Shown piece by piece: positions 1-47,460 of a stretch of DNA of 64,000 bases. The stretch's first letter is position 1; each line of letters starts with the position of its first letter. A program made the position numbers and the translations under genes. The stretch is from Pempheris klunzingeri (taxonomy: Eukaryota > Chordata > Actinopteri > Acropomatiformes > Pempheridae). The notes under the pieces were generated by a model. It saw nothing but the letters and a program-made list of their open reading frames with translations. It was not told where the DNA came from and searched no databases. The stretch is from positions 14,324,328-14,388,327 of the forward strand of contig NC_092019.1 of NCBI RefSeq assembly GCF_042242105.1, in the 5' to 3' direction.

Positions 1-211
1 AAAGGAATTTGGTGAGGAATTTCTCAATCCTCAAATCTTTTCGGTGCAAAGTGAAAAAATACACAAAAATATTTTCTTTACGAATCTAAAACCTTGTCAG
101 GAGTAGCACGTCCTTCCCAATATGTAAAGCCAACAGACCAGTGTTGTTTTTGAACCCTATTCTGAGAGCATTAACTCTACTGTCTCATGGTTTTGACTCC
201 CCTGTTTCCAG

Positions 212-450
212 ATGACCCCTCATCCAACTGGCTTCACGCGAAGCCCACCAGAAAAAAGCGTTGTCCGTATACAAAGCACCAAATCCTCGAACTGGAAAAG
301 GAGTTTCTATTTAACATGTACCTCCCCCGGGATCGTAGGTACGAGGTAGCGAGGGTCCTGAGTTTGACCGAGAGACAGGTGAAAATCTGGTTTCAGAACC
401 GCAGGATGAAGATGAAGAAAGAAAACAAAGACCGGCGGAGAGACAGTTAA
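212..450 (+). CDS. hoxa9b: Hoxa9b, last exon (homeobox exon); 5' part lies outside the window
   Basis: This exon encodes the homeodomain of a Hox9 transcription factor, a nuclear DNA-binding protein that patterns the posterior body axis and paired appendages. It begins after the acceptor tttccag (ends 211) with the last two bases of an Asp codon and ends at TAA 448-450. The Pbx-contacting Trp (SSNWLHAK) sits just before a complete 60-residue homeodomain that opens [12 protein letters not shown] and has the recognition helix [13 protein letters not shown]. The [11 protein letters not shown] arm is diagnostic of paralog group 9. Homeodomain residue 27 is Pro (NMYLPRDRR), where Hox9 proteins usually have Thr. 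The a9b assignment rests on the next gene being hoxa2b with no Hox gene between, as in teleost HoxAb clusters. Exon 1 is upstream of base 1. Confidence 0.93.
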
Positions 451-7129: not shown

Positions 7130-8646
7130 ATGAATTACGAATTTGGGCGAGAAAGTGGTTTTATCAACAGCCAGCCGTCGCTCGCTGAGTGCCTGACATC
7201 TCTCACTAACCCTGTCGGTGATGCATTTCAAAGTTCATCAATCAAGAGCTCGGCGCTTTCACAGTCGACACTGATTCCTCCTCCTTTTGAGCAGACCTTC
7301 CCCGGCCTGAACCCGGGCATCCACCCACGCCACAGCCGCTCAAAGCAGGCTCTGAAGGGCTGCAGCCCGCTGCAGGCTGCATCCCTTCCCCCGGAGTACC
7401 CGTGGATGAAGGAGAAGAAAAGCATCAAGAGAAACCAGGCTGCTGCTGCTGCTGCTGCTTCTGCTTCTGCTGCTTCTGCTGCTGCGACAACGACTGACTC
7501 CCCACCACTCTACTTCTCCCCCCAAGGCAAGACATGATGATTAATAACCTCCATGCAAAAGGCTCCTCATTGTCTGAGGATTCCCCTCTGCAAGGAGCTG
7601 CATCCCGGGACCTGTGCAGCGTGGGCGTCCCTTTAAGCCAGTATAGGATTTTGATTTAAACATGCTTAATCTCATCAAGTAACGCACTGACTTGTGATGC
7701 AGTGTAAGAGTGTTAATGTTTGACAGTAATGGAGAGTGATAGATTATTCTTACACGGGCCAGCAGCTGGCATGTTCATTAATCTTCACCCTCCGTCCTGT
7801 CCTGTCCACGCAGACCCATCATATTCTGCCGGGGGCCCATAAATCTTCCAAGTCCTCGTGCTTGCTTGCCACAAGTTTCACCCCATAGAGCTTGTTTTTC
7901 TCCACACATACAAACACACACATACAACTGCGCTGCCAGATTTTCTGTGATTAAAAAGTAATATTTTTTCTTTTTTTCTAGGTTCACCAGAGGTACTAGA
8001 GGTTGGTGATGGCGGCGGAGGGGCATCCCGGAGGTTGAGGACTGCGTACACCAACACCCAACTTCTGGAGCTGGAGAAGGAGTTTCATTTTAACAAATAC
8101 CTGTGCAGACCGAGGCGAGTGGAAATAGCTGCGTTGCTGGATTTAACAGAGAAGCAGGTGAAAGTGTGGTTTCAGAACAGGAGGATGAAGCACAAGAGGC
8201 AGACCCACTGCAAGGAGAACCGGGACAGTGAGGGGAAATACGCGTGTCTGGACGACGGGCCGGAGGACGAGTTTGAGCAGGCGGCGGACGGCAGCGCAGC
8301 CGGGACGCTCCTGGAGAGCGAGAGGTATTTCCACCAGAATACTTCACACAATGGGGACAACCAAAGTCCGGCGGTTACGCCTTTGAACAGCAATGAGAAA
8401 AATCTGAAACATTTTCCTAACTCGGCTCCCACTGTTCCTATCTGCGTGTCAACAATAGGCCCGGACAATGATAATTCCTCCGGCCTGGACGTTTCTTTGC
8501 AGGATTTCCAAGTTTTCTCATCCTCCTCCTCTTTCTCACCAAGTTTGTCAGATTCAACACAAAGTCCTCTGACTTTATCATCCGAAACATTTGACCTTTT
8601 CTCAGAAACACTCACAACAATCGACTTGCAAAACTTAAGCTATTGA
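7130..8646 (+). CDS. hoxa2b: Hoxa2b homeobox transcription factor, complete (2 exons)
   Basis: Hox2 factor of the nucleus that sets hindbrain segment and second pharyngeal arch identity. Coding exons: 7130-7526 and 7982-8646 (353 aa; mammalian Hoxa2 is about 376). The N-terminus [20 protein letters not shown] is the Hox2 family start and fixes the ATG. The YPWM Pbx-binding hexapeptide is at residues 90-93. An Ala/Ser/Thr tract from GCT/TCT codons covers residues 104-122. The homeodomain is residues 148-207 ([19 protein letters not shown], then [14 protein letters not shown]). The C-terminus keeps the Hox2 tail [12 protein letters not shown]. Joining at 7526/7982 gives SPQ-GSPEV in frame, which requires a GC donor (AAG|GCAAGA) and a normal ctag acceptor. 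Similarity to Hoxa2 was judged from memory, but the identification is secure. Confidence 0.97.
7439..7497 (+). repeat. GCT/TCT trinucleotide tract coding Ala/Ser in hoxa2b exon 1
   Basis: Seven GCT codons are followed by mixed TCT and GCT codons, then GCG and three Thr codons. The tract encodes A7 followed by mixed Ser/Ala and TTT, between the YPWM motif and the homeodomain. It is probably length-variable. Confidence 0.9.
7527..7981 (+). promoter_or_regulatory. hoxa2b intron with candidate hindbrain (rhombomere) control motifs
   Basis: This 455-bp intron holds two bipartite Hox/Pbx-type motifs, TGATTAAT (7538-7545) and TGATAGAT (7737-7744). A Meis/Prep-type TGACAG (7721-7726) lies 10 bases before the second. 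A perfect EGR/Krox20 consensus GCGTGGGCG is at 7619-7627. In amniotes the Hoxa2 intron is known to carry a Hoxb1-dependent rhombomere-4 module built from Hox/Pbx and Prep/Meis sites, so these motifs are where such an element would be expected. The motifs are seen directly; function and conservation are inferred. Confidence 0.55.
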
Positions 8647-12161: not shown

Positions 12162-15100
12162 ATGCGCGCTATTCCCGAGGAGCTGACGACGCTTATTTCA
12201 GGTAAAATATCGATAAATGTTTGTCTCTTTTTTTTTGAAAACACGGGTTGTTTTCCGTGTTCTTTCACGGCTTGTTACACAAAGTCCAGCTATAAAAGAG
12301 GAAGCGCAGTGTCAACATGGATGACTAAGTTTTAGACCAGGTTCACCTCATCGGCTCACCACAGAGCTGCTGCTTCTCTCCTGCTGATTAGTATCAAACA
12401 ATGCGCAGTTTGACATCAAGGCTGCAAACAGCTGTGTTGTGTTTGCTGCTGTGCTCTCAAAGGTAAGATGATCAGCAGCAGCAGCAGCAGCAGCAGCACT
12501 GGGCCCTTTGACTGCCAAGTAATACACCACAGGCACTAAATGATATCAAACTGTATGTGAGTGTTTTAAAAGGTCTTTTGTTGTTTAGATCTAGAAAACT
12601 ACATCTGTGATGGATTAAAAGGGGAAAATCTAAGCAAGAAGGCGAAAGAGAGGAGGGAAGCCTTCATCAAACGCATTAAAGAGGTCAAACTCGGGTACGT
12701 CTGTTAGCATTTTACAGCAAAATGGCCTTTTGGACTTTGGTTATAAATGTGTCACTTTTGTAACATCCCTTTACTGTCTCTCCAACAGCTTCCCGCACGA
12801 TTTCAAGGATAAGAGTGAGTGTCTTAACCTCTACGGTACTCTCATGGTTTATGTTAAAATATGTTACACCAGTGGTTCCCAACCTGGGGGTCGAGACCCA
12901 AACAAGAGGTTACAGCATGAATCGAGTGGCCACAGGATGAGTCACATCAGGATATCATCTCGTTTTCATTGGGGTCTCTAAAAATGATGATTACCGATGA
13001 AGATTTCAAGAAAAATCTAAATTGTGCAAAACAACGCTATTATTTTTTCACACTTTTCAATATTAGGCCTATTTGTTTATTGTTACGCAACAAACTGTGC
13101 AGTTAGTTTGTCCAAACAGCCTGAAATGGGGAAGTCACGCTTCGAATGAACAGCTTGCGTCTCATAGATAGACACAACCAGGTGGGGAATCACTGTTTTT
13201 ACACTGTTTACTCTAGTAGGCGGAGATGACACGGATGAAGAGGAGGAAGTTGATAGCAACAACGATGGCGGGTCATTGCAGTCAGAGCGCACAGACAAGG
13301 ATGAAGAGACTTGTGATGGTAAGCCACAAGCACTTAGCACATGTCCAAAGTTGACTTGCTAACTGCTAACAAGCTGTGGATTAAAGTATTGAAAATTGCA
13401 TCTTGGCATGAAAATATACAAATCTTTGGGTCTGCTCCGTGGAGAAAGTGACTTTGAGTGGCACAATGAGGGAGACATTCCAACTGTAACTTGGCAACAT
13501 ACTTGGGAAGCAATTTGGGGGCACAACTGCTACTCCCACCACCTCTTTCACCCCACCCCTTTGACAGCTAGAGCATGCTTTATTGCTCTCAGCCACAGTC
13601 TGGGGACTGGAAATTTCTGCCATGGCTGTAGTTTGAGAAAAAACATTCCTCAATATACAGTAGCTTTAACCCTGTACATGCTCCACGATGGCAATCTATG
13701 CAAGATTTTTGCATTTACTTTTTAAACCAAGTATCGGGGAAATCCTTGTGAAATGGTGATTAGGGGTCTGGGGTTTATGGGCTGTAAGCAGCTGCCTGCT
13801 TTATGGCCGCTCTTTCACACAAAGCAACTTTGACACAGCAGTTGAACATTTGCATTGAAGTTGCAGACTGCAAGGGGAACCTCCTCCAGTGTGAGGCAAA
13901 ACGCTGCTCAGTGGAGCCTCCCTGTCTTCTCCTACTTATTTTAACATCAGTCAAACAAATGCGTGATAGCAACTGTAGTCACAGACACATCTGTTTATCT
14001 TATGTATTTGAGAAACAAATGTAATTGTCATTTTTCTGCTTTAAAAAAAACTGAAACGAAGAACACTGAACCCACTTCTTTGGGTTTCATCAACTCTTTT
14101 TCCAGGTGCCCAGCAGTCCCCACCTGTGGCGGCTCAGGACCTGACCTCAGTCTTTAAGGCGGGATATCTTGAGAAGCGCAGAAAGGGTGGGAGCACGACA
14201 CAAAATAACCCCCAAAACAATTTACTATGGATTTTAGGACATATGATAAAATACAGGACTGAAGCTCATATGTGACATGTGACACGGCTCTAAATACGCC
14301 AGTAAATGATCTGTTTCTTCTGTAATGAGATTATCGTTGGTTTTTCGTCCGTAGATCACAGCTTTTTTGGCACTGAGTGGCAGAAGAGATGGTGTGCTCT
14401 AAGCCATCATACTTTCTACTACTACGGCAGTGAGAAAGGTGCTTCAGTTGTTTTCTCATTTAATCCCAGTTTGCAATTACGACTCACATACTGTTTGAGA
14501 AAATTTAAGAGGATGGATGCTCTGCCTTTGTTTCCCAGATTTTGACAGTGACATTGCAGTTGGTGTATCTGAACCATTAATGTCCTGTTTTAATTTCCTG
14601 TAACCAGACAAGCAGCAGAAGGGGGAGTTCAGTATCGATGGGTACACTGTCAAAATAAACAACACCTTACGGAAAGACTCAAAGAAAGACTGTTGCTTTG
14701 AAATTTCGGCTCCAGACAAGCGAGTCTATCAGGTACGCTCGTCTCTTGGTGCTGGTTTGAGTCATTGCCGTTCTAAATGTCCGTCCCAAATTAAAAAAAA
14801 TAAGTGTGGACTTGAGATGTGCCATGTTTTAAAACTTGGAAAGGCATGTGTGTACATGCACTTCATTAAATCTTTATTTTTAAAACCTATTCATTCATTT
14901 GACACTGCTGCCTTTGCAATGACTCAACCCGACACGCATATTTAAAGAGTCTAAATGAGTGTTTCCAACATTCAGGCTCTTCCGTGTGGAACATTTTACT
15001 ATGCATAAATGCAGAATTATTTGTTTATGTTAATTAATATATGTAGAGCTGCATATTGCACTGACTGCAGTTTTCATGTCTCTTCTTTCATCACAGTTTT

Positions 15101-15403
15101 GTGCGTCATCAGTGAAAGAGGCGGAGAAATGGGTGAAACAGATAGACTTTGTTTTGAGAGGTTTGGACCATTTCAATCACAAAAACTCATTATTATGCTC
15201 TATAATGTCAGAAACTGCAGTATTCGTCTTCATGAATGAAAAGCCAAAGATTAACACAATTTTCTAAATACACTGTTGCCCATAAAGTTGGAATAATTGT
15301 TCAATACCTCCAATTTTGTTAAAGCCTGAATACACAGTTTGCAAAGGTTCATTGTGGTTTAAGTTTCACTGTGATACTGTGAAAAAACATTTTATTCCAA
15401 CTT

Positions 15404-15443
<40 letters not shown>

Positions 15444-18400
15444 TGATAAATCAATGTTACCGTGTGTCTGCATAAGTCAAATGTATGTTCCTTTTCTTTG
15501 TAGATATGACGGGCATCATCCCAGTAGATGAAGAGGAGGAACAGGACGTGTATGATGATATTGGATCTATAGGTGATACAGCTGAGTCTGAGATGATGGA
15601 CGACATTTATGAAGAGCTCCCAGGTCGGCTACACATTATATCACCGCGACAGTCTGTACAGTCCCACACAACATGACCAAATTGCATGCATCTCTTTGAT
15701 TTTGCTTTCATTTTTGATTCAAATGGTTTATTTTCTTCCTATTTCCCTGTCCACTAATTAGATGAAGAATCATAACCTTTAATTCATAGCACGCTTGTTC
15801 ATCAATATATTGCCTTGTTTTTTTTAGAGGATGACGTGACCACTTCAGCAAAGCCTCGTCCAAAGGTCGAACCAGCGAGCAAACCTGCTCCTCCTGCTGC
15901 AGGTACACAGCACAGAAATGTGTCTGCTTTCATGACAGCACAGATATCAGTGATGTATTTAGTTTGTGGAGTACAGCGTAGCAACTTTCACTACATATTC
16001 AGAAGATATGATGGGACTGATTGACATTCTGTCACACAGTTTTTGGTGGTAGTTAGCAAAGTCACCCTTCAAAGTCACAGTTTTGAAGAAGTGACATTTA
16101 CAGAGGAAGTCTCTGTGAACATGTGCAACTGAAAGTTAACACAACGCTGGAAATAACTTTCAGGCCAACTTCCTTTTATACTAAGTGACCTATTGAAGTT
16201 CTGTAATTGTAAAAGTACCATTTTATTTATCTCTATCAACTGATTCTATGAAAACATTAATTGCCAAGAAACTAGCTGAACCCTATTTCACACTGCTCAC
16301 TAATTGTCTACAGCATAATATATAGTAATATTTACAGTGTACTGTCAAAATTAGTTTTATTTTTTTTCAGCTCTGAGCTGCACCCCTATCTCCTTTGTGC
16401 ATTGCATTACGGGAGCATAGTGTTCATCACTTTCCCAACCTGAACATACTACATACTCAAAACCTGCTTAGAATTAGTGCATAGCATGAACTTGGCTCAC
16501 AGCTACTGTCTGCCTCCAGTGCTATTTTAAGCTCTCCGCTGCCTCCTGTTGGTTTTGCTGCACACAAACAATCACTGCTGTGTCAGACCTGTACAATTAA
16601 TGTGATCACTCTCACCTAATTTGTTATCATCATTATCTGTCCCTGTTTGCATCCAGTCGATAAGAGTACAGACTACCCCAACTATTACCAGGGCTTATGG
16701 GACTGTATAGGGGACTTCCCAGATGAGCTGTCCTTCAAACGTGGAGATGCCATCTACATCCTGAGCAAGGTACTGTTAGGGGAACCCTGCTCATCAGAGT
16801 AAAATCAACTGATTTGTCCTTTAATGAGTGCCTTAATGAGTGTTTTCTTGATCCACGGTGAAGTCAGGATGAGCTCAAACCCAACTATAATGCAAAAGCT
16901 GAGGTTTTTCATCAGAGTGGTTCTGCTGGTCTCAGACCACCTAAAGTGAGTTATTTCAAGGCCCTCAGAGGTACTGACTGTTCATATCCTTTACTGGCAG
17001 CAGCTGGCCCACCGCCTGGAGGTGGACGGCTGATGGTAAGAGGCAGACTGGGCTAGGTTCTCTCTCTGGCACTGTGATGGGGATTAGTTGTGTCACAACG
17101 GAAACTGTTTTAGTGCTGTTGGCGGAGGCTGGGCTTAGCTGGCACAGAGTGCCATTCCATCACTTCCATCTGGACTGTTTCAGCACGCTGCCGCTGCTGC
17201 CATGCCAGACGGTGAGCAGCCCTCAGCCCACACACCTCTCAGATGTCTCTCTCACCTCGGCAAATAGGAATGTGTGTTCTCAGGAAACCCAGGCTCAGTC
17301 CGCCACTCTATTCAGAGCAGGTGAGGACGTGTAGTGGACGCACAATTTCCGAGGCTTGTCGCCTAGGCGTGGGTGCCAGGTATTGAGAACTGAAGGGCCG
17401 TTCTTTACCTTTATTATGTAACTTAACAGGAGCCCTTTTGTGCTTAACTGGTTCATATGAACGCAGAATTGGATTTTGTTGTGATACATTTAACAAGCTT
17501 GTTTTTGAACATCGCACAGCAAATTAGTCAAGGAGTTTTATACGCTTACAGATGCCCTGTGTCGACCCTGTGGTTTGTGTTTTTTTAAAAAAAAAAAAAA
17601 AGTGTGAAATGTGCACCATCTAGACTGGATGTAATTCCTGTCTGGTTTGGTTTCTATGGAGCCTGTAGTCAGCTGAGACATACTGCTGTCAACTGACCAG
17701 GTCAGTTTCTAAATTCAGTCTGCCATCTAGTGGCTCCTAGAAGCCATGAAGACTTAGAAGAATGTGACTACTGACCTCCAAACATTATTTATATGCAGAA
17801 TCCTGAATTATGATTTTGACTCATCAGTCAGGAGCATAAGGACGTAGGCTGCAAGATATTTTCATGATTGATTAATTTTATTTTTCTGATTCATGGATTA
17901 AAAGCTTTAATTTAAAAATATCATCTGCGAAACAGTACAAAATACAAGCAGAGAGGAATCAAAGGCAGGCATTTTTGTTTGATAAATGACTCAAGAAAAC
18001 AATCATCAAAATTGTTAATTTTCCGTTGACCAGCTAATTGATTAATTGATTCAGCACTAATGGAAGGAAACAAATGCACAAAGCAGACAGACCCATCAAT
18101 GCTCAATGGCCAAATGCCTGTTTATTACTCTTCCTTCTTGTGTGGAAAAGGACCAAGAATCAAGTTGCCCTTTCACTCAGACTGGGAGTGCCATTAGCTG
18201 AAACCTTGGTGTTGGGGGTTGTGGCCTGCTGCGAGGGCAATGACCATAAAACCTGTCTGGACTGCAGCAGCCAGCTGCAGCTAAAGGGACAGCCGAGCCC
18301 CCCCCCCACACCACACCACACCACCACTGCCCAATCGCTCCCTCCTCCCCCATTCTCCTTTCTCCCTCGTCCCAGCCTCCCTCCCCCATTCCACAGGCCA

Positions 18401-19961
18401 GAAATAGCTGTAGTGTTACAGCTGTGAGACCCCCCAGTCAGGACCTGGGTGTTGATTATAGGGCCTGACTGGGAGTGAGGGAGAGTGTGTTGTCCGGATA
18501 TGCCCCCCCCCCCACCCCTGTTCAAGTCACAGCACATAAAACTAATCGGAAGATGTAACATCTCACTTAACTTAAGTGGCTAGATGGGTTGATAAAATGT
18601 AACGCTGTCCAAACATGTTGCTGCTGCTCTTGTCACTGTGCCCGCCGATCTTTTTTGCCTTATCACTGGGTGTACAGTTTGTGCTTGTAAAGTGATGCAG
18701 CAGCTGTAGAGCGTTTCATTCGGTAGAGGTAATAAAATTATGGGACAAAAGTATTATCCAGTTTAGGGTGTTTGTGTTAATGTGTGTGTTGTCACAGTGT
18801 GTGGTGTCATTAGTCCTCCACAGCTCTGCTTATGTGTGCTCATGTTGTGTCCCACACTCACTCAAGCATGACTTATTTGTCAGCCAGAACTACACAATGA
18901 GGTGTTGCTGTTTTCAAAGGCTAGCTGCAGGAAGTCATAATGTGCACACACACTCGTTCTCGCACTCTCTTACACACACCCTATTTCAGTGTGCTACATT
19001 ACCCCTCAGGGGCTTGTGAAATGTCATTTTAATCATGTGACACATTAATGAAATGAATGTGACATTTAATGTTTGTTTCTTGCGATGTTTAATTTGCTGT
19101 TAATAATTTTGCTAATGTGCTTTTTTTCTTCTTCATGCACTATGTATAAAGCTGTGACATGGACAGTAGGTCAAGCACCTTTTTTATCTGATGTGATGAA
19201 TGGCCCATCACAACTGCCAATGCTGCTGCATCACTATTGTTAATGTTTTCTTCCTGGGTCTAATACTACCATATGATCACTTACATCCATTAACCTCTCC
19301 TGGGAATAACTGGACACAGATGTGGTCTGTCCTCGTCCCTGAGTTTTGCCATAGATTTGAAACATTGTGCAGGTTCCTCGTCCTTCAACCTTGACAGAAC
19401 GTGATCTCCAGTGTTGATTCATGAGCTGGGAAGACTTTGATGTGAGGTCAGGCTCTTGGCCAAAGAGAGAGAGAGAGGGGTATTCTGCTCTTGTCTCAGA
19501 TCTCTCGTCACAGCGTCCTCCTCACATCTCAGCATGCTGACAGCCATTTGGAGCTATTACTTGTCACGCTGTGACAGATTTATGTGTGATGTGCTCTATG
19601 CACACTGAGGGTTTTTGTGTGGAGTGGAGGGAAGTGTGTGTAGTCTCAAAACCGACATCGGGTAGATAAGCAGGATAGGGAACAGGAAAATATGATGGGA
19701 TCAATGGGACGAAGGTATTGTTTCTGAGTTGGAAATGGTGTTATTTCATTCATTGAAATGAAAAATAATTGCTGCTTAGTGTTAACTACATCAGTTAAGA
19801 TGAGCAAAGTTGTCTCCTTAACACACTGTTATCATCCTCTCAATGTCTCCACTTTGTCCTGTTTCCAGGAGTACCACAGCTTTGGCTGGTGGGTCGGGGA
19901 GAAGAATGGAAGTATAGGAATTGTCCCCAAAGGCTACCTGACGGGGCTTTACGCTCTATGA
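12162..19961 (+). CDS. skap2: Src kinase-associated phosphoprotein 2 (SKAP2), complete, 12 coding exons
   Basis: Cytosolic adaptor working with Src-family kinases and FYB/ADAP in integrin and cytoskeletal signalling. Coding exons: 12162-12201, 12589-12694, 12789-12814, 13220-13318, 14106-14186, 14355-14438, 14608-14732, 15097-15160, 15504-15623, 15828-15902, 16657-16769, 19869-19961. They join in frame to 341 aa (human 359). Regions: N-terminal helical part with [10 protein letters not shown] (dimerisation region in the family); acidic linker ([10 protein letters not shown]); PH domain about residues 107-208 ([17 protein letters not shown], then [12 protein letters not shown]); the Src/FYB tyrosine motif DDIYEELP with Tyr244; SH3 domain about 279-341 ([34 protein letters not shown]). 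All introns are GT-AG. The ATG at 12162 is used because the in-frame codon further upstream is GTG. As in human, it lies on the anterior side of the HoxA cluster. Confidence 0.95.
12474..12498. repeat. (CAG)n microsatellite in skap2 intron 1
   Basis: About eight CAG units inside the first coding intron. Confidence 0.85.
12870..13196. mobile_element. hAT-type MITE in skap2 intron 3
   Basis: The left terminus CAGTGGTTCCCAACC and the right terminus GGTGGGGAATCACTG are imperfect inverted repeats (15 bp, two mismatches) about 325 bp apart. The flanks TGTTACAC and TTTTACAC look like a degraded 8-bp target duplication shifted by one base. It has no coding capacity. It lies just before exon 4, so the intron 3 acceptor at 13219 is only about 25 bases from its edge. 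Confidence 0.65.
15268..15405. mobile_element. Truncated mariner-like MITE in skap2 intron 8
   Basis: The left end CACTGTTGCCCATAAAGTTG continues with GAATAAT. The right side contains TTATTCCAACTTT, a perfect 13-bp inverted match, but the outer part of that terminus is replaced by a (TG)n run. A TA precedes the left end. It appears to be a small mariner-type MITE whose 3' terminus was overwritten by microsatellite expansion. Confidence 0.55.
15405..15441. repeat. (TG)n microsatellite
   Basis: About 18 TG units joined directly to the truncated MITE terminus, 60 bases before skap2 exon 9. Confidence 0.95.
17840..18062 (-). mobile_element. Teleost dispersed repeat in skap2 intron 11
   Basis: Read on the minus strand the segment begins gtgctgaatcaattaatcaa and continues with phrases such as ggaaaattaac and gagtcatttatcaaacaaaa. 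This is the recognisable opening of a very common teleost interspersed repeat. Identification is from memory of the family; the copy is diverged and incomplete. Confidence 0.5.
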
Positions 19962-31462: not shown

Positions 31463-32724
31463 TTATCCAAAGAAGAAGTAGAATAGGAAAAGGCTGCATC
31501 TTTTGGAGTGGAGACTCCAAAGTGTGCCATGATGATACCTGTCTGAATCACAGTCACAGGACAGGCTGAGAACCTTCTGAAGATCCTCCTCTGAGTGAAA
31601 TCGCCTCAGGCCACAACGTTGGACCGCCTGGACCACAGAGTAGGGGGTCCTTCCAGCAGCACAGGCCTGTATCATGGACACGCTGAGCTGTGACTGCAGG
31701 AAAAGGTGCAGGCAGCTGTCTGACAACAGAAGAGGGTTCTGGAGGATCCTGGACAACAAGGAAAATGACACTGTTAGTAAACTGTTTGTTGATGTGAAGA
31801 GCAGTCATGTGGCCTGTTGTTCGTTGAAACTGTGATGCACTAGTTTTGTTATGTTTGTGTTTTAGCATGTCAAAGTTCATATGGTTATTGATCTGTGAGG
31901 TCATTCTTACTGTTCCAAAAACTTCTGGAGCCCTTTCATGCGCTCACTGATCTGTTGGGCGCTGTTCAAGCTGAAGAAAGGGTTCTTTGGGGGCATCTCT
32001 GGTAGCTGTACCCTGCAAAAGACAAATATATCCTAAAAATGACACTAGTGCAGATTACTTTTAAAATGAAAACTTAAAATATTCATGGTATTGAGTTTTA
32101 AATATTAAGTGTTCATAATGAAAATACAGTAAAACTGACTTACATTAGCATTGAATTTGCTTGTAGCTTCTGCCTGAGCCACACAAACTCACTATACCTC
32201 CTTCTCACACTTGAGGTCTTCTTGTTGAAGCATACGCTGTTGGTCTGAAAGAGGACACAGTGTGACAAACGTATTACAGTGAGCTCAAATATTTGATGCT
32301 AAAGATTAAAACAACTTCCTTTTCTCATTTTACTTACATGTAGACAAATCTCATAGTCTATGTAGGCATGCCAAAAGTCATTCTTTTGTATCCTTGGGTC
32401 CCGTACCCAGACACTGATGACCTGCTGCATGGAGAAGGCAGGAGAGACACTGAACTGAATGCACTGTTATGAAAAATGGGAACTTTTTATTGGTGGATAG
32501 AGGAAGTGAATGAGCAACACGTCAAGAATCAGGAAAGGAAAATCTTCCTTTATTGCAGAGGACAAAAAACAAGTTGTTTTTTAAGGCTGTACTAGATTTT
32601 AAAGCTTCTGAACATAAAATGTTCAGACATTTTAAAGCTCTTTAAAACGTTTAAACATCTCATTCGAATTGCAGAATAACCTCAGACCTACCTGACTCTC
32701 TGTGTTTTCAGTTTCTTCTCTCAT
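31463..32724 (-). CDS. snx10b: Sorting nexin 10, complete (5 coding exons)
   Basis: PX-domain protein of endosomes; in vertebrates it binds phosphoinositides and supports V-ATPase trafficking and osteoclast function. Minus-strand exons: 32724-32692, 32424-32338, 32244-32144, 32012-31911, 31748-31463 (202 aa; human 201). The ATG at 32724 gives [11 protein letters not shown], spliced in frame to [18 protein letters not shown]. The PX domain covers about residues 12-120: YIDYEICLH, the lipid-contacting [27 protein letters not shown] and the helix [20 protein letters not shown]. Arg54 corresponds to human Arg51, mutated in osteopetrosis. The C-terminus differs from the acidic, Ser-rich human tail and ends [13 protein letters not shown]. 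The 'b' suffix is inferred from linkage to the HoxAb cluster. All splice sites are GT-AG. Confidence 0.92.
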
Positions 32725-34214: not shown

Positions 34215-37167
34215 TCACTGCTCCTCGTCTCCACAGTGCCACATCAGCTTCTGCTCATAGAAGTCGATGACCACCTGGGGACACCTGGCGCTGGCTTCAC
34301 GGGCCGGCAGCAGGGCTACATCATCGGAGTTCTTCCTGTGGGGAAACAGACGGGAGAGGGAAGCCATTAAAATGGCGGCCGCCTACTTTTGATGTATGCA
34401 AAGTGTTTCTACAGCAACACATGCACTGCTGCCAGTTTAGAAACGGCTATTGTGGAGAAAGAAAGACTACGGGGAATTAATCACATATGCTCAGTACAGC
34501 CAGTCTCTGACTACTGGAGTTTTGAAACATCCAATTACAGTTATTCTGACTTAAAGTTTCCAGTATTGCCCTCCAGACACCCCGGAAGACACCCAAAATC
34601 AATTAATATGGATGAACTCTGAACTGTTAATAGATGGTAAGCACTAGACAGAAGTGGATTCATCTTTATTCTGATTTAAAGGGGCAAACAGCTATTGAGT
34701 ACTGAATTTCCATTAAGTTGGAAAACTCATAACATGGTCAAAATCAAAGCAGCAGATGATGAGTTTTCCAGACATTTACCCCTCACATTTGTTTCTGTTC
34801 CATTATTTTTTGCCCATTGATATTGTTTAATATTTTACTATTAAACTGTAATTGATTGATCACAGCCATATATTTATATTTATATTTATCACAGCCATAT
34901 ATTTATATTTATATTTATTTTGCTATTGCTATTTTTTCTTTTACTATTGCTTCTTTTCACTCTCCCTGTTCTATTGTTGCTGTAACATGAGAATTTCCCC
35001 CTATGGGGGATCAAATAAAGAAAGTCTAAGTCTAAGTCATTTATTTCCTGAATTGATTTTATTGTGTTTTAAAAGTGGTTCTCATTTATTCACCTTATGT
35101 AAGACTCTTTGAATTGCCTCTGTGTTCAGGGTGCTAATAATAATATAATGATAATAAATAAACAAAGAAACTTGCCTTGCCTGATATGAATAGACACTAG
35201 ATCTTCTGTTTTCCAAAATGCAAATGAAAACATCTTTTCATTAGTGAGAATTCAGACCAATAGAAATGCACAGGGCTGCAGTGGTGGGGGCCTGCTGTCT
35301 CACAACATTATGTACAATCCAGAAAATTCAGTATAAGTAACTTATTAGACTCTGCAATACTGAACAACAGTTTACAATATGAGGGAGGACTTTACTACTC
35401 TGGAAGGTTACCATCTTTTTGTCGTTCCTTGCGACAGTAGCGAGGTAAACAGCAGAAATACTCCAATGACAAAGTAATCCTCCAGAAATTTGTGGCTATA
35501 TGTTTGGCAAATGCAACATCTTGATGGGTGACGGTGCGTTGCTGCAGAATTTGGGCCAAGTTCGATTGTTTTGCTGGATGACGCAGCATTTCTAGCTGGA
35601 ACGCCGCCTGCATTAATCTGATCGCACCCTCCATGAGTGAATAAAAATCCTAATAAATGCCCATAGCTTTCTACACCTCCTATCAAAAACTCCACACCCA
35701 AGCTATGAGTTTTGTTTTCACAATCTGAGTAGTACTTCCCATATCTAATAACCTGACATGTATGTGTAGAATTGGTGAAATTCCCCTTTGAAACTGCAAA
35801 GCAGATTTACTGTGGTAAGAGACACTCTCCATAGTCACGTTCTAACCTGGGGAATGTTTTGCTAATGCCAATACAGTCTAACTTTGTCTCCTTGGTAAAT
35901 GATATATTCACATTAAAAGGTTGGTATATGAGACTGTCTGAGCTGTAATGTCTCCGCATACCAACAACAACAAGATCAAACACCCTCATAAACCTGACAC
36001 CAGGTCTTCCATTATCTTTGCTGTAGGTTGAAGATGTACATTGCAGCTTTAAATGTGTTGAACTGTGGCTTTTACAATCATACAAACATTTACCCAACCC
36101 CTAGCAGTTACTCAAGGGCAGAGAAAAGAGGAAGTGGTGGAGTTACCATTTGACAAGGAACATGAGCTCTCCCTGTCTGTCTGTGGAGCCGATGATGCAT
36201 TCAGGCTCGAGGTAAGTGCTGAGGTTAGTCGGGGTGTCTGACTGCTCATCATTGGGCTCGAAATCGTTGCTGTTGCTCTGAACAGAGTGAGCCTGCTGCT
36301 GAGACTGCATACAGGACTGTAAAGAGAGTGACAAGACCAAAGGGGAAACAGTTAGAAGAAAACCACAAAGACTAAATCTGCATTAGGAGACAGCCCGGAT
36401 GTGGCTTTTACTGTGCAAGCCCATTGCGAAAAAACAGGAAATTTAAGTGCTTTCACTTTCAGGGGCACTGCAAAACTAACCACCTTCACACATCATTTAG
36501 TTTCATATTCAGCCTTAAAACTCCCAAAAAAAAGTAGGAACAAAGTCTGCCAACACGGTCAGATGACTGCACTGAACTCCAGCACAGCTTCTTTTTACTT
36601 AAAGAGAAAAAACATCGTCAGTGTGACGAAAAGCAATGCACTATTTAAAAAAGATTCTAATAATATGTTGTTGTTTTTTTTCTTCCTTTTTGCAGATTTA
36701 AGTGCGGAAGTTCTGCAAATAACATGGAAACAACATAAACGTACACATGTTCCAGCACCGCATTTCTCACATACTCACAATTTCCGTCTCTTGCTCTGCC
36801 ATTTCTTCTTTGGGAATAAGCCCTTGTTCAGTTTCCTCATTCTCTTCTGAGAAATGGGTGTTTCTCAGGAACTCTTCAATGAGTTCAGGGCAGTCCAGGT
36901 TGTCCTCAGGCTCCCATGTGTTTTCTGCACTGTAAACATGTAATAAAGAGGAGAGAATACATTTTAATATGAAGCACAAATACAGAAAATGACTAATTTC
37001 TGAATCTGCATCTCACATCTCACTCACTCAGTGAAGCCTTTCCACTTGAGAAAGTACTCCACTCTTCCATTAAAGACTCTGCGGCGAATTATTTTTTCTA
37101 CCACAAACTCCTGCACAACTGTAGTCTCCTCAGTCTTCCTCTGTTTGGCAGTCTGCTTCTTTCTCAT
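34215..37167 (-). CDS. cbx3b: HP1-gamma / chromobox 3-like protein, complete (4 coding exons)
   Basis: Heterochromatin protein that reads methylated H3K9 and dimerises to compact or mark chromatin. Minus-strand coding exons: 37167-37028, 36929-36779, 36316-36147, 34335-34215 (193 aa; human CBX3 is 183). The chromodomain is residues 20-68 ([39 protein letters not shown]) with the methyl-lysine cage F21, W42, F45 intact. The chromoshadow domain is residues 136-188 ([20 protein letters not shown], then [17 protein letters not shown]). The hinge (69-135) is unusual: acidic, Gln/Ser/Asn-rich, with a single Lys (K87) and no KRK-type signal. A 5' non-coding exon is implied by the acceptor ggcag one base before the ATG. 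The b suffix is inferred from position. Confidence 0.9.
34859..34916. repeat. Tandem duplication, two units of about 29 bp
   Basis: The unit 'atcacagccatatatttata...' occurs twice in a row inside the last cbx3-like intron, with further TATTTA repetition inside each unit. Confidence 0.85.
34980..35040 (+). mobile_element. 3' tail of a LINE-type element
   Basis: gaatttccccctatgggg followed by gatcaaataaag and a (TCTAAG)n-like tail is the usual 3' end of teleost LINE-derived repeats. The body upstream is too diverged to delimit. Confidence 0.5.
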
Positions 37168-37539
37168 CCTGCCATGGAGGAGAAGCACACGAATGACATC
37201 CAGCACGCATTACTGGCAGCAAATGGAAACAAACCATAAAACGTCCATCTTTTGTCACACGTGAACCCTGTCGTGTCCCTGTTGCTGATATACTTGCAGA
37301 ACAACATGACAGTGGTGAGCACTCTGCTTGCCCTTCACACAATGATCCATACACTTGTTATAGCGCTCCACCTGCTGTTTCTGTCGGGAGCACCACACAC
37401 TCTCACACTACTCCTTCAGTCCAAAACGCAACACGTTAGTATTTACACACGTGTACAGTTCATTCAGACAATTTAGCTGTAGGATAAATAAATGTGTAAA
37501 CTGCAGCCTGAAAACGCGATTGGAAACATGCCTGAGTGG

Positions 37540-37900
37540 TACACAAGACGCTGCACTGAACAATATGCACGTACGCTTTCGATGTTTACTTAATCTCGGC
37601 GGACAGCCAGCTGCGGTGCTGCTCTGCTCTGTTTGGAGCGTGTCGCTCGAAACTACATGCACACAGCGCCGTCGATGCTGCTTTTGTGGGCAAATGTGTC
37701 GGTCGGCTTGTTTACATGAGCGGAACAACTTTTCATGAATGAGTTAAAATTAAAGATGGCCGTGGATGCTCGGAGGAAGTGGTTGCCAAGGGAAAAGGTC
37801 ATGCCAGGAAAACCGGGAGGAGACGACGGGGACGCGCACGCCGCCGACCAATCAGAGAGCAGTCCGCTCGTCCGTCCCCCCCCCCCCCAGTCCAGTGGTC
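37540..37900 (-). promoter_or_regulatory. Promoter and 5' UTR region of the cbx3-like gene
   Basis: A CpG-rich block (locally the most CpG-dense of the area) just upstream of the coding exons. It contains CCAAT (37848-37852), an aagatggccg YY1-type motif near 37753 and GC-rich runs. The transcription start and first non-coding exon probably lie here. In mammals CBX3 shares a divergent CpG-island promoter with HNRNPA2B1. Confidence 0.55.
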
Positions 37901-38146
37901 CGGAACAGCCCTGCCACCCATGGGCGTCAACTGGGTACAGCAAGGGACTGTGTGCATTTGGCACGTCTCACTGGGATTATAGATTGGCTCTAGGTTATAG
38001 ATTCTTTGATCTTTTGGATCATTGTCGGTATTTGGGAGCGACATTAAAGAAAAAATAAATGTCCTCAGAGTGTAAGCAGAATCATATAAGGAAATAGAAA
38101 TAAAAGCTAAACCTGATCAGGTTTCTGAATTTTGAAATATCATTGA

Positions 38147-38243
38147 TTATATTATATTATATTATATTATATTATATTACATTACATTACATTACATTAC
38201 ATTATATTACATTACATTTCATTACATTATATTATATTATATT
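38147..38243. repeat. (ATTAT/ATTAC)n pentanucleotide array
   Basis: About 19 tandem five-base units switch from ATTAT to ATTAC and back, ending in tttcatt-type degenerate units. Confidence 0.95.
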
Positions 38244-40289
38244 TTGAAGTACTTGTTTCGGAAACTTTATAATTCTATTACAGTTTACTCCACAACATTT
38301 ATCATTTTATTGTTTTACCACTATAGGTCATGGATTACATTACATTTCATTATCCAATAGTACATACATAGTTAAAGTGTAATGATGTAATTAAAACGCA
38401 GTTCAATGCACAATGATAATATTTCAAAAAATATCCGTAAATGACGGAAATAATATGGATAATAATTCTGCTTAATATCACCAAGAGCTTTTATTTTTAT
38501 TGCTTTTAATAATGTACTATTGGTTAATGTTGTTTGTTGCTAACCCTTTTCTAATATTCTGAATGCAGGGCCTGTACTTGTAATGAAATATTTTTGTATT
38601 GTAGTATTGCTACTTTTATTTAAATTAAAGGGCTCGATGATCTTGTAAGCACGGAGGGGATCTGTACTCCTCGACCTCCTAAACCACACTGAGGAGATCA
38701 CAGGAAAACAACCTCTGGAGGATTTGATTGACAGGTCCGTTTTAGCCAATGGTAAACCCCACAGCTGCTGATTGGCCAAGTAAGCACCACTAACAGACCT
38801 TCCTACTTGACCAAGTTTACCTTTTTTCCAGCAGTTATTCCACACTGTTTTGTAACACACCACTGGGGGGCGCTGTCTGCTTATAATGGACTGCCAGGTT
38901 CAGTGGGCCAAACGCTCACTGCTTCTGCACCCCAGTTAACTAATGAGAATGGATTTATGCTGGGAAGCTCATAGCAAAAGGCAGCAGAACAAAAGGTTTC
39001 ACTGGGAGGTGGTTTCACATCGGAGCTGCCTCTGATGTAGGCTACTGTTGTTTCTGATACCATTTCATCCTCAAGGCAGTATTACATAACATTTGGTGTA
39101 TTTGTTCAAGACATTTACTTGTACATGCACTGCTACAGCACTGTAAGAATGTAACACAGAGACAGGGATGCCTACAGTGAAAGTAGCACATGGTGATGTG
39201 TTACAGTCCTGTGAAATATTACTACAGTTTCATTTTCAATGAGGAAACACTGGGGAGACTCTGGGGACGTTATTAAAAGTGATATCACTGAAAAGGCTGG
39301 CAGACGCCTGCATGGAAGATGAATGTGGTGTGTATCGTCTCCAGAAAAGGAGCTTATTGATCGCAGTCTCTGAGGGGACAGGACACAGGTCTCGTGTAGG
39401 ATGCAAATCAATGTTTGGATATTTTGACCTGCCACACTTGCCCCATACAACTCCCCATGCAGCGGAAACTTAACATAGGGGATAGACGGTTGGTGTGATC
39501 ATCAGGAATTTCAAGTTTCGATTGATATAGCCCCGGTGATAGGCTGCCGTTTTCTTCTGTGATTAATAATTAACATTGTGATGTTCTCAACAGCTAAACA
39601 CAATTACTTTCTTTGCTCACAGCAGCTCTGGCTTCAGATAGGCACCTCTTTCCACACAAAGTCATTATAAAAAATCTCTCCCTGTCTTCTGAACTGGGAT
39701 GAGCAGCAACACTTATCTGGTAAACTAGAAAACTTTATCTTTTTTCAGTTGGATCACAGATTTAACATTTCCAGAAAATCTTCAGTGGGTGTCAGAGTTA
39801 TAATGTTGGTAATAAGGCACCCTTTTTAAAGGGTTTTACAAAGTTAATACATTATCAACTTGTGCTTTATAGAGAAATCAGAATTCAATGATAGGAGCAA
39901 TTTGGGGGTTGCTAAGCTTCCCAAAATCCCTTTGGCTGGCGTTTATCTCTTATAAGCCATCAAATCTGCAGTTAGTGAGGCATTAATAAGCTGTTTTTTT
40001 TTAATCAAAGTGTATCAAGTCTGCAAAACCAGAACCACGTCAACCAGAAATTACACCTTTATTTCAAATGAGTCACAATAAGCTTTCCCTATGAGTGGAC
40101 CCAGAATCCAAGACGAGATGTGTTCGGTATCTGCCATATGACCTGCTGTTGTCCTTTGACCCCTTCCTGTCACCTCTTTTGGGGTTTTAGTACTAGTTGC
40201 CATAGTAACCGAACGGCTAATAAGGTTGAGCTGTCGCTGCAGGTGCAGGAATGGCAGTAATGCATGCAATGAGGCCCTGATTTTACTGC

Positions 40290-46439: not shown

Positions 46440-47460
46440 CACCCACCATATATAAAGAATTTAGGATTGCGCTCTTCTGGACAGAAACCTCAGATGTTGT
46501 ACCTGGGATCTGCTGGAGCATCCAGTGCTCCGATCACCAGTTTCACTCCGATCACTGTTTCCCTTACACCCCACATGTTTTCTAGCTCCTCTTTCAGCCC
46601 TTGGTATTTTTCGAGCTTCTTGTGTTCCTTCTTCCTGATGTTGCTGTCACTCAGGATTGCTACATCGATCACTATTGCCGTCTTCTGTTGTTTGTCGATC
46701 AACACGATGTCAGGTTGATTAGCCATCACCAGTTTGTCAGTGTGGCTATGGAAGTCACACAGGATCTTTGCTCTGTCATTCTCAACAACTTTGGGAGTTG
46801 TTTCCCGTTCTGACCGTGTGACTTCCAGCCCATAACACAAATGTTCCTGTACTCTATGCCAGCCGCTTGGTTATGCCGCCCATGTACTCTGTTCCTGCGT
46901 ACATCTTACACCCTGATATTATGTGCTGGATTGTTTCAGGAGCATCTTTGCAGAGCCTGCACCTGATCTTGTACCAACTGCCTGCTCTTGTGCTGCCATG
47001 AGTAGTGCTTCTGTGCTGTCTTGTAATACAGGCTTTTCCAGCCACTGGTAGGATTTCTGGACATTAACCACCTCCTCTGGCTTGATGAGGCTTGGCACCC
47101 AATCTTGGGCCCTTTGACCTGTTGTCCTGGCTCCTCCTTGCTTGCATGTTGGTTGTACCTCATAAATCTCTAGTTGTGTTAGCAGTTCCTGTCTGCGCAA
47201 CGCTGGGCCCAGGTGTTGGGTTTTGTAGCCCCTCTTACTGAGGTTACTTGTATAGTAGCACTCCAACAAGTCCATATTCTCTGTTCTGGCTCATCTATAA
47301 TTCATTCCAGTAGCCCATCTCTTATGAGGTTGCCCCAGTTTCCCAACACCTGATGCGGACCTTGTTGTCGCATTTGCGGTTTAAGTCATCCCGAGGAAGA
47401 CTAATAGCACCTAGGACCGTGCCTGGATACGTCTTGTATTCGTATCAGTGTAACACAGGA
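46440..47460 (-). pseudogene. 3' end of a LINE with C-terminal restriction-like endonuclease
   Basis: Minus-strand fragments in several frames match the last third of the ORF of R2/R4/NeSL-type non-LTR retrotransposons. They include a zinc knuckle CRLCKDAPETIQHIISGC and the endonuclease core QPDIVLIDKQQKTAIVIDVA followed by SDSNIRKKEHKKLEKYQGLK. The usual C-terminal phrase QQIPGTTSEVSVQKSAIL is readable only in a different frame (about 46450-46530), because of a deletion after IGALDAP. Other frameshifts occur upstream, for example near 46850 and 47045. The element is 5' truncated and dead. Confidence 0.8.

Follow-up and report, generated by a model that had tools for sequence, protein, structure and literature searches.

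The charge of the hinge that links the chromodomain to the chromoshadow domain is thought to govern the binding of DNA and RNA, phase separation, and compaction by HP1 proteins, a view based largely on mutants, chimeras, and simulations. The hinge is described as the most variable part of the HP1 family (PMC7465937), and the published counts of positive and negative residues, made with slightly different boundaries from ours, are 13/8 for human HP1-gamma, 13/12 for HP1-beta, and 17/8 for HP1-alpha (PMC11003746). In teleosts, both cbx3a and cbx3b are retained in all the clades studied, according to a survey of 151 cbx3 genes from 68 species (PMC7230241), and cbx3b expression is reported to change in the brain, gill, and liver of the tiger barb (PMC9817673). 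Among the titles and abstract openings of the literature searched, no acidic HP1 hinge was found, nor anything on the hinges of cbx3b. An intact natural HP1 protein with an acidic hinge, accompanied by a basic-hinge ohnologue as a built-in control, would allow the role of the hinge to be tested in an animal. If such a hinge were common to cbx3b across teleosts, it would also suggest why both copies have been retained; teleost cbx3b may generally share it, and this may be visible in existing databases.

Gene structure and genomic context

The window (the whole 64-kb stretch of Pempheris klunzingeri DNA that was analysed) contained on its minus strand an HP1 gene with four coding exons, at 37167-37028, 36929-36779, 36316-36147, and 34335-34215, as modelled from tblastn searches with HP1 domain sequences and examination of the splice sites. 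The features of the window are as follows.

187..450, plus strand: Hox9-group homeobox ORF, upstream of hoxa2
7130..8646, plus strand: hoxa2-like gene, two ORFs, synteny marker
14354..19952, plus strand: skap2-like gene, synteny marker
31526..32442, minus strand: snx10-like gene, synteny marker
34215..34335, minus strand: last coding exon of cbx3b, with the remainder of the chromoshadow domain ([13 protein letters not shown]) and the stop codon
36147..36316, minus strand: cbx3b exon with the last 35 hinge residues and the start of the chromoshadow domain, ending in phase 2
36317..36778, minus strand: hinge intron of cbx3b, 462 bases
36779..36929, minus strand: cbx3b exon with the remainder of the chromodomain and hinge residues 71-97 (27 residues, with 1 K and 10 D/E), ending in phase 0
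37028..37167, minus strand: first coding exon of cbx3b found, with the ATG, tail residues 1-19 (net charge +4), and the start of the chromodomain with F21, W42, and F45, ending in phase 2 at the donor gtgagt
37201..38300, no strand assigned: CpG-rich stretch (by CpG o/e) at the 5' end of cbx3b, likely promoter

The predicted product of 193 amino acids contains no internal stops or frameshifts and is laid out as a tail (residues 1-19), chromodomain (20-70), hinge (71-132), and chromoshadow domain (133-193). All three introns are GT-AG, with phases 2/0/2 that are identical in all five HP1 gene models of P. klunzingeri. The product matched Pfam Chromo (PF00385) with 77.9 bits (cut-off 25.1) and Chromo_shadow (PF01393) with 88 bits (cut-off 22.4), two models that do not span the hinge. 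Judged by its frame and splice sites, cbx3b is an intact gene. The range 36147..36929 given in the original prediction takes in just exons 2 and 3 of cbx3b and the 462-base intron between them; the cage residues lie upstream of it, and W186 and half of the chromoshadow domain lie 1.8 kb downstream.

A candidate acceptor at 37168 (score 4.6) stands one base ahead of the ATG, so that a further upstream 5' exon is likely. CpG o/e was 0.83-1.02 in seven 500-base windows starting at 37201-37801, against a 64-kb mean of 0.35 (sd 0.19), and four of the 12 highest values fell at this 5' end, the other eight belonging to windows that start between 4101 and 11801. The intact frame and splice sites, conserved cage, and CpG-rich 5' end favour a working gene, and cbx3b is probably expressed in P. 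klunzingeri. Elsewhere in the window, two ORFs on the minus strand at 46490-47275 resemble, by eye, part of a retrotransposon reverse transcriptase.

In the human genome, the order of genes is HOXA-SKAP2-SNX10-CBX3, and that in the 64-kb window (hoxa9, hoxa2, skap2, snx10-like, and cbx3b) agrees with it, with the Hox9-group, hoxa2-like, and skap2-like genes on the plus strand and the snx10-like gene and cbx3b on the minus strand. The ORFs at 7130..8646 are assigned to hoxa2 by their resemblance to the Hox family sequence, the ORF at 187..450 belongs to the Hox9 group, and the succession of a Hox9 gene and hoxa2 corresponds to the HoxAb layout. HNRNPA2B1 is the divergent neighbour of human CBX3. 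It was not found within the 64-kb window, including the part at 37700-64000 that adjoins cbx3b, and the whole-genome list of 33 matches placed on this contig only a partial RRM match of 51%, approximately 116 kb from cbx3b; the paired-promoter arrangement thus seems to have been lost at the cbx3b copy. A family search of the genome found six places that carry a chromoshadow gene, one of them being cbx3b. The others are listed below.

Contig C16: cbx3a, approximately 5 kb from a snx10-like gene
Contig C20: cbx1-type gene, with a weaker snx10-like match nearby
Contig C17: cbx1-type gene (cbx1a-type)
Contig C11: cbx5, adjoining an hnRNPA-type gene
Contig C145 (small): HP1-like gene, probably not fish DNA

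The HP1-like gene on C145 (47,850 bases; L005 at 862-1635, L017, and L018) has a chromodomain and chromoshadow domain of invertebrate look. Over 20 kb, this contig had a GC content of 0.27 and a CpG o/e of 0.92, whereas two fish contigs had 0.42-0.43 and 0.43-0.56, respectively. It probably represents contamination, for instance by a parasite or an organism that the fish had eaten. A pattern search for related loci gave 18 matches on viral contigs and 194 on genome contigs, none of which was confirmed.

All four of the chromodomain states (F, N, T, and A) that are common to cbx3a and human CBX3 and absent in CBX1 and CBX5 are kept in cbx3b, and two of its chromoshadow arginines are common to cbx3a alone. 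In the phylogenetic tree, cbx3b fell on the side of CBX3 and cbx3a (support 85/97), a placement that is not decisive; cbx3b forms a long branch, the pairing of cbx3a with cbx3b had a support of 49/0, and the data did not reject a clade that joins cbx3b and CBX1 (p = 0.207). The family assignment therefore rests on synteny and the diagnostic residues. The chromoshadow domain of cbx3b alone had CBX1 chains as its nearest PDB matches, and several of the CBX1-like states concerned are also found in cbx3a of this species, suggesting that such states may be ancestral for fish cbx3. The earlier recognition of an HP1-gamma protein is thus backed by the HoxAb synteny, the four CBX3-marking chromodomain states, and the two chromoshadow states seen otherwise only in cbx3a, and on this evidence we identify the gene as cbx3b, the HP1-gamma ohnologue linked to HoxAb.

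Charge of the hinge and N-terminal tail

The hinge of cbx3b (62 residues) contains one K, no R, 3 D, and 12 E, giving a net charge of -14 and a pI of 4.05, which confirms the acidic, nearly lysine-free hinge noticed at the outset. The Lys/Arg-rich hinge that characterises the HP1 family is therefore missing here, whereas all seven comparators have a net positive hinge: cbx3a (+5), cbx1b (+5), cbx1a (+6), and cbx5 (+5) in the same genome, and human HP1-gamma (+6), HP1-beta (+2), and HP1-alpha (+7). The presence of four paralogues with basic hinges in the same fish means that the acidity is specific to cbx3b and not a property of the HP1 proteins of this species. K and R made up 1 of 62 hinge residues in cbx3b and 12/39, 12/37, 16/44, and 15/64 in the four paralogues (Fisher p = 1.4e-6 to 2.3e-4). 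The corresponding counts were 14/41, 14/46, and 16/51 in human HP1-gamma, -beta, and -alpha (Fisher p = 5.5e-6 to 1.8e-5), where provisional sequences of the HP1-gamma and -beta hinges were used. Compared with an average protein, the deficit is less extreme, the probability of at most one K or R among 62 residues ranging from 0.003 when K+R make up 12% of residues to 0.036 when they make up 8%.

The two exons contribute differently to this hinge. The part encoded by exon 2, with its 10 D/E and one K, has 27 residues, equal to that of cbx1b and near the 29 of cbx3a, whereas the part encoded by exon 3 has 35 residues compared with 10-12 in the four paralogues. The last 10 of these stand where the paralogues carry the RGF motif, which precedes the chromoshadow domain in all seven comparators and is absent in cbx3b. 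The 25 extra residues are rich in Q, S, and N and include 4 D/E but neither K nor R. They are encoded on the minus strand at 36242-36316, between the acceptor used and the position of the paralogues' acceptor, and may be an exonised intron. It is plausible that these residues arose when the acceptor moved upstream and intron became hinge; an insertion would leave an identical picture.

The N-terminal tail of cbx3b (residues 1-19) has a net charge of +4, compared with +3 in human HP1-gamma and 0 in cbx3a, and lacks most of the acidic run that precedes the chromodomain. This is the highest tail charge of the eight HP1 proteins, by one over human HP1-gamma, with the tails of cbx1a and cbx1b being incomplete. 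Since the cbx3b tail is basic, and since simulations show DNA contacts made by the lysine-rich HP1-gamma tail (PMC11003746), the loss of nucleic-acid binding that the original prediction had proposed cannot be assumed. The cbx1a-type gene (L011, contig C17) carries a long Ala/Pro-rich stretch in the tail ahead of the chromodomain.

Chromodomain and chromoshadow domain

The aromatic cage (F21, W42, and F45) and the chromoshadow tryptophans (W154 and W186) are all present in cbx3b, as had been anticipated for the cage and a chromoshadow Trp. In the chromodomain, cbx3b was altered at two of the 28 positions that are invariant in the other seven HP1 proteins, both to Ile, and cbx3a and cbx1a were likewise changed at 2/28 when left out in turn, indicating that the cbx3b chromodomain is ordinary. 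Over the whole chromodomain, identity was only moderate, at 36/51 between cbx3b and cbx3a, 41/51 between cbx3b and human CBX3, and 43/51 between cbx3a and human CBX3, and Tajima-type tests of cbx3a against cbx3b detected no difference in this domain (p = 0.53 to 0.76).

Of the 43 chromoshadow positions that are invariant in the other proteins, 11 were altered in cbx3b, whereas each of the other proteins, when left out, was altered at 0 or 1 of 32-33. This comparison is somewhat unequal, since the references then include cbx3b, which takes variable positions out of the invariant count. With four outgroups, Tajima-type tests of this domain counted 12-15 unique changes in cbx3b and 0-2 in cbx3a (p = 1.1e-4 to 2.7e-3), although these are not four independent tests because the outgroups overlap. 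The contrast between the two domains within cbx3b (11/43 vs. 2/28) was suggestive only (Fisher p = 0.063), and the terminal branch of cbx3b was 0.54 long, compared with a median of 0.064. We used no dN/dS ratio for cbx3a and cbx3b, because pS was saturated or nearly so (0.81 in the chromodomain and 0.58 in the chromoshadow domain).

The changes include A125S and T169M, which we take to lie near the peptide groove and to be those most likely to touch it. I161, Y164, L168, and W170 (HP1-beta numbering) are identical in cbx3b in a gapless alignment, all four being dimer and PxVxL residues. In mouse HP1-beta, I161E is reported to prevent dimerisation and W170A to disturb PxVxL binding (PMC7465937). 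The expectation that cbx3b can dimerise is thus supported by the retention of all four residues but made less certain, as is its choice of partners, by the 11 changes at 43 positions in a fast-evolving domain; these changes may weaken dimerisation or partner binding.

Interpretation and comparison with known HP1 proteins

Apart from the basic hinge, cbx3b has the HP1-gamma features for which it was tested at the sequence level. The reading we favour, with moderate confidence, is that cbx3b is an intact, probably expressed gene that has kept its reader module while its basic hinge has turned acidic and partly Q/S/N-rich, yielding a tuned, weakly compacting reader rather than a mere inactive competitor. 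Cbx3b would still read H3K9me2/3 and pair through its chromoshadow domain, including with other HP1 proteins, whereas the acidic hinge would be unable to hold DNA or RNA electrostatically. With a hinge that no longer grips nucleic acid, the remaining DNA contact would rest on the N-terminal tail, which may still hold DNA as the tail of human HP1-gamma does in simulations (PMC11003746). Whether paired with itself or with another HP1 protein, Cbx3b would be expected to bind chromatin more transiently than Cbx3a or Cbx5 and to condense it to a lesser degree; a Cbx3b subunit may weaken the condensation by a heterodimer, by analogy with the negative HP1-beta in the simulations (PMC11003746), and the altered chromoshadow surface may shift the set of PxVxL partners. 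Cbx3b may turn out to be a competitor that lacks nucleic-acid binding, but given the basic tail and altered chromoshadow domain, a reader that is tuned or has other partners is no less likely. We suggest only tentatively the broader scenario in which one of the two HP1-gamma copies left by the teleost genome duplication became a conserved, dedicated non-compacting H3K9me reader with an inverted linker charge, DNA contact through the tail, and a re-tuned chromoshadow domain, fluidising canonical HP1 chromatin by pairing.

Relaxed constraint remains a serious rival and is quite possible, though we do not hold it to be the probable explanation. The hinge and chromoshadow domain of a partly redundant copy would then have drifted while the reader domain was held for a residual function, with no new role for the hinge, as the long terminal branch, the excess of unique chromoshadow changes with each of the four outgroups, and the loss of the RGF motif would lead one to expect. 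However, the chromodomain shows no such excess and the ORF and splice sites are intact; moreover, in our judgement, which is uncomputed, drift alone is not expected to give 15 D/E against one K/R in 62 residues. The opposite charges of tail and hinge within one protein (+4 vs. -14), and of this hinge and those of its paralogues (+5 to +6), could instead point to a hinge that binds histones or partners, as an acidic chaperone-like patch or a masking arm that would bind basic histone tails, the hinges of other HP1 proteins, or the protein's own N-terminal tail, with autoinhibition or heterotypic condensation with basic-hinge HP1 proteins as the result; charge complementarity is easily found, however, and we regard this as doubtful.

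It is very improbable that the acidic hinge is an artefact of the gene model, with another exon or acceptor used in the real protein, or belongs to a dead gene. The last exon does lie 1.8 kb away, a further 5' exon is likely, and the position of the paralogues' acceptor, 36241, falls inside a called exon, but this site, still CAG, scores -4.4 compared with 6.2 for the acceptor used at 36316, and a 37-residue hinge spliced from it would still contain 1 K and 11 D/E; six other in-frame acceptors listed would add no K or R. A spliced exon restoring a basic hinge, which would have overturned the original prediction, was not found: the hinge intron (36317..36778) holds no in-frame phase-0, stop-free cassette exon of at least 24 bases with non-negative acceptor and donor scores, in a scan that covered this intron only and used simple splice matrices, which weak or unusual exons could escape. 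Both domains also exceed the Pfam cut-offs, with neither stops nor frameshifts. A compensated frameshift, by which the acidic hinge would have arisen at one stroke, is the least credible origin considered. The +1 frame of residues 71-97 in exon 2 is free of stops and has a net charge of +12, but random synonymous recoding equalled this charge in 3565/5000 cases and the match to human hinges in 748/5000 (GC-matched recoding: 1167/1891 and 291/1891). When the match was scored to the four fish paralogues one by one, 17 to 63% of 3000 draws did as well. This candidate origin is thus unsupported by the synonymous-codon nulls.

Cbx3b can be set beside several known proteins. Cbx3a (contig C16) shares its intron phases, snx10-like neighbour, HP1-gamma chromodomain states, and the chromoshadow segment [12 protein letters not shown], but has a basic hinge of 39 residues (net +5) with KRK, KKK, and RGFARN, a tail of net charge 0, and a slowly evolving chromoshadow domain. 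Human HP1-gamma (CBX3) is alike in its domain order, basic N-terminal tail, and chromodomain (41/51 identical), whereas its hinge is net +6 and its chromoshadow domain merely 34/55 identical. HP1b and HP1c of Drosophila arose by independent insect duplications, separate from that of fish cbx3b. They resemble it as HP1 paralogues that have shortened, poorly conserved hinges and a more euchromatic location (PMC7465937). HP1-beta (CBX1), the closest PDB match of the cbx3b chromoshadow domain, is described as the most negative human HP1 protein and condenses DNA weakly (PMC11003746), but its hinge is balanced to slightly basic, with 13 positive and 12 negative residues as published (PMC11003746) or 14/12 as counted here.
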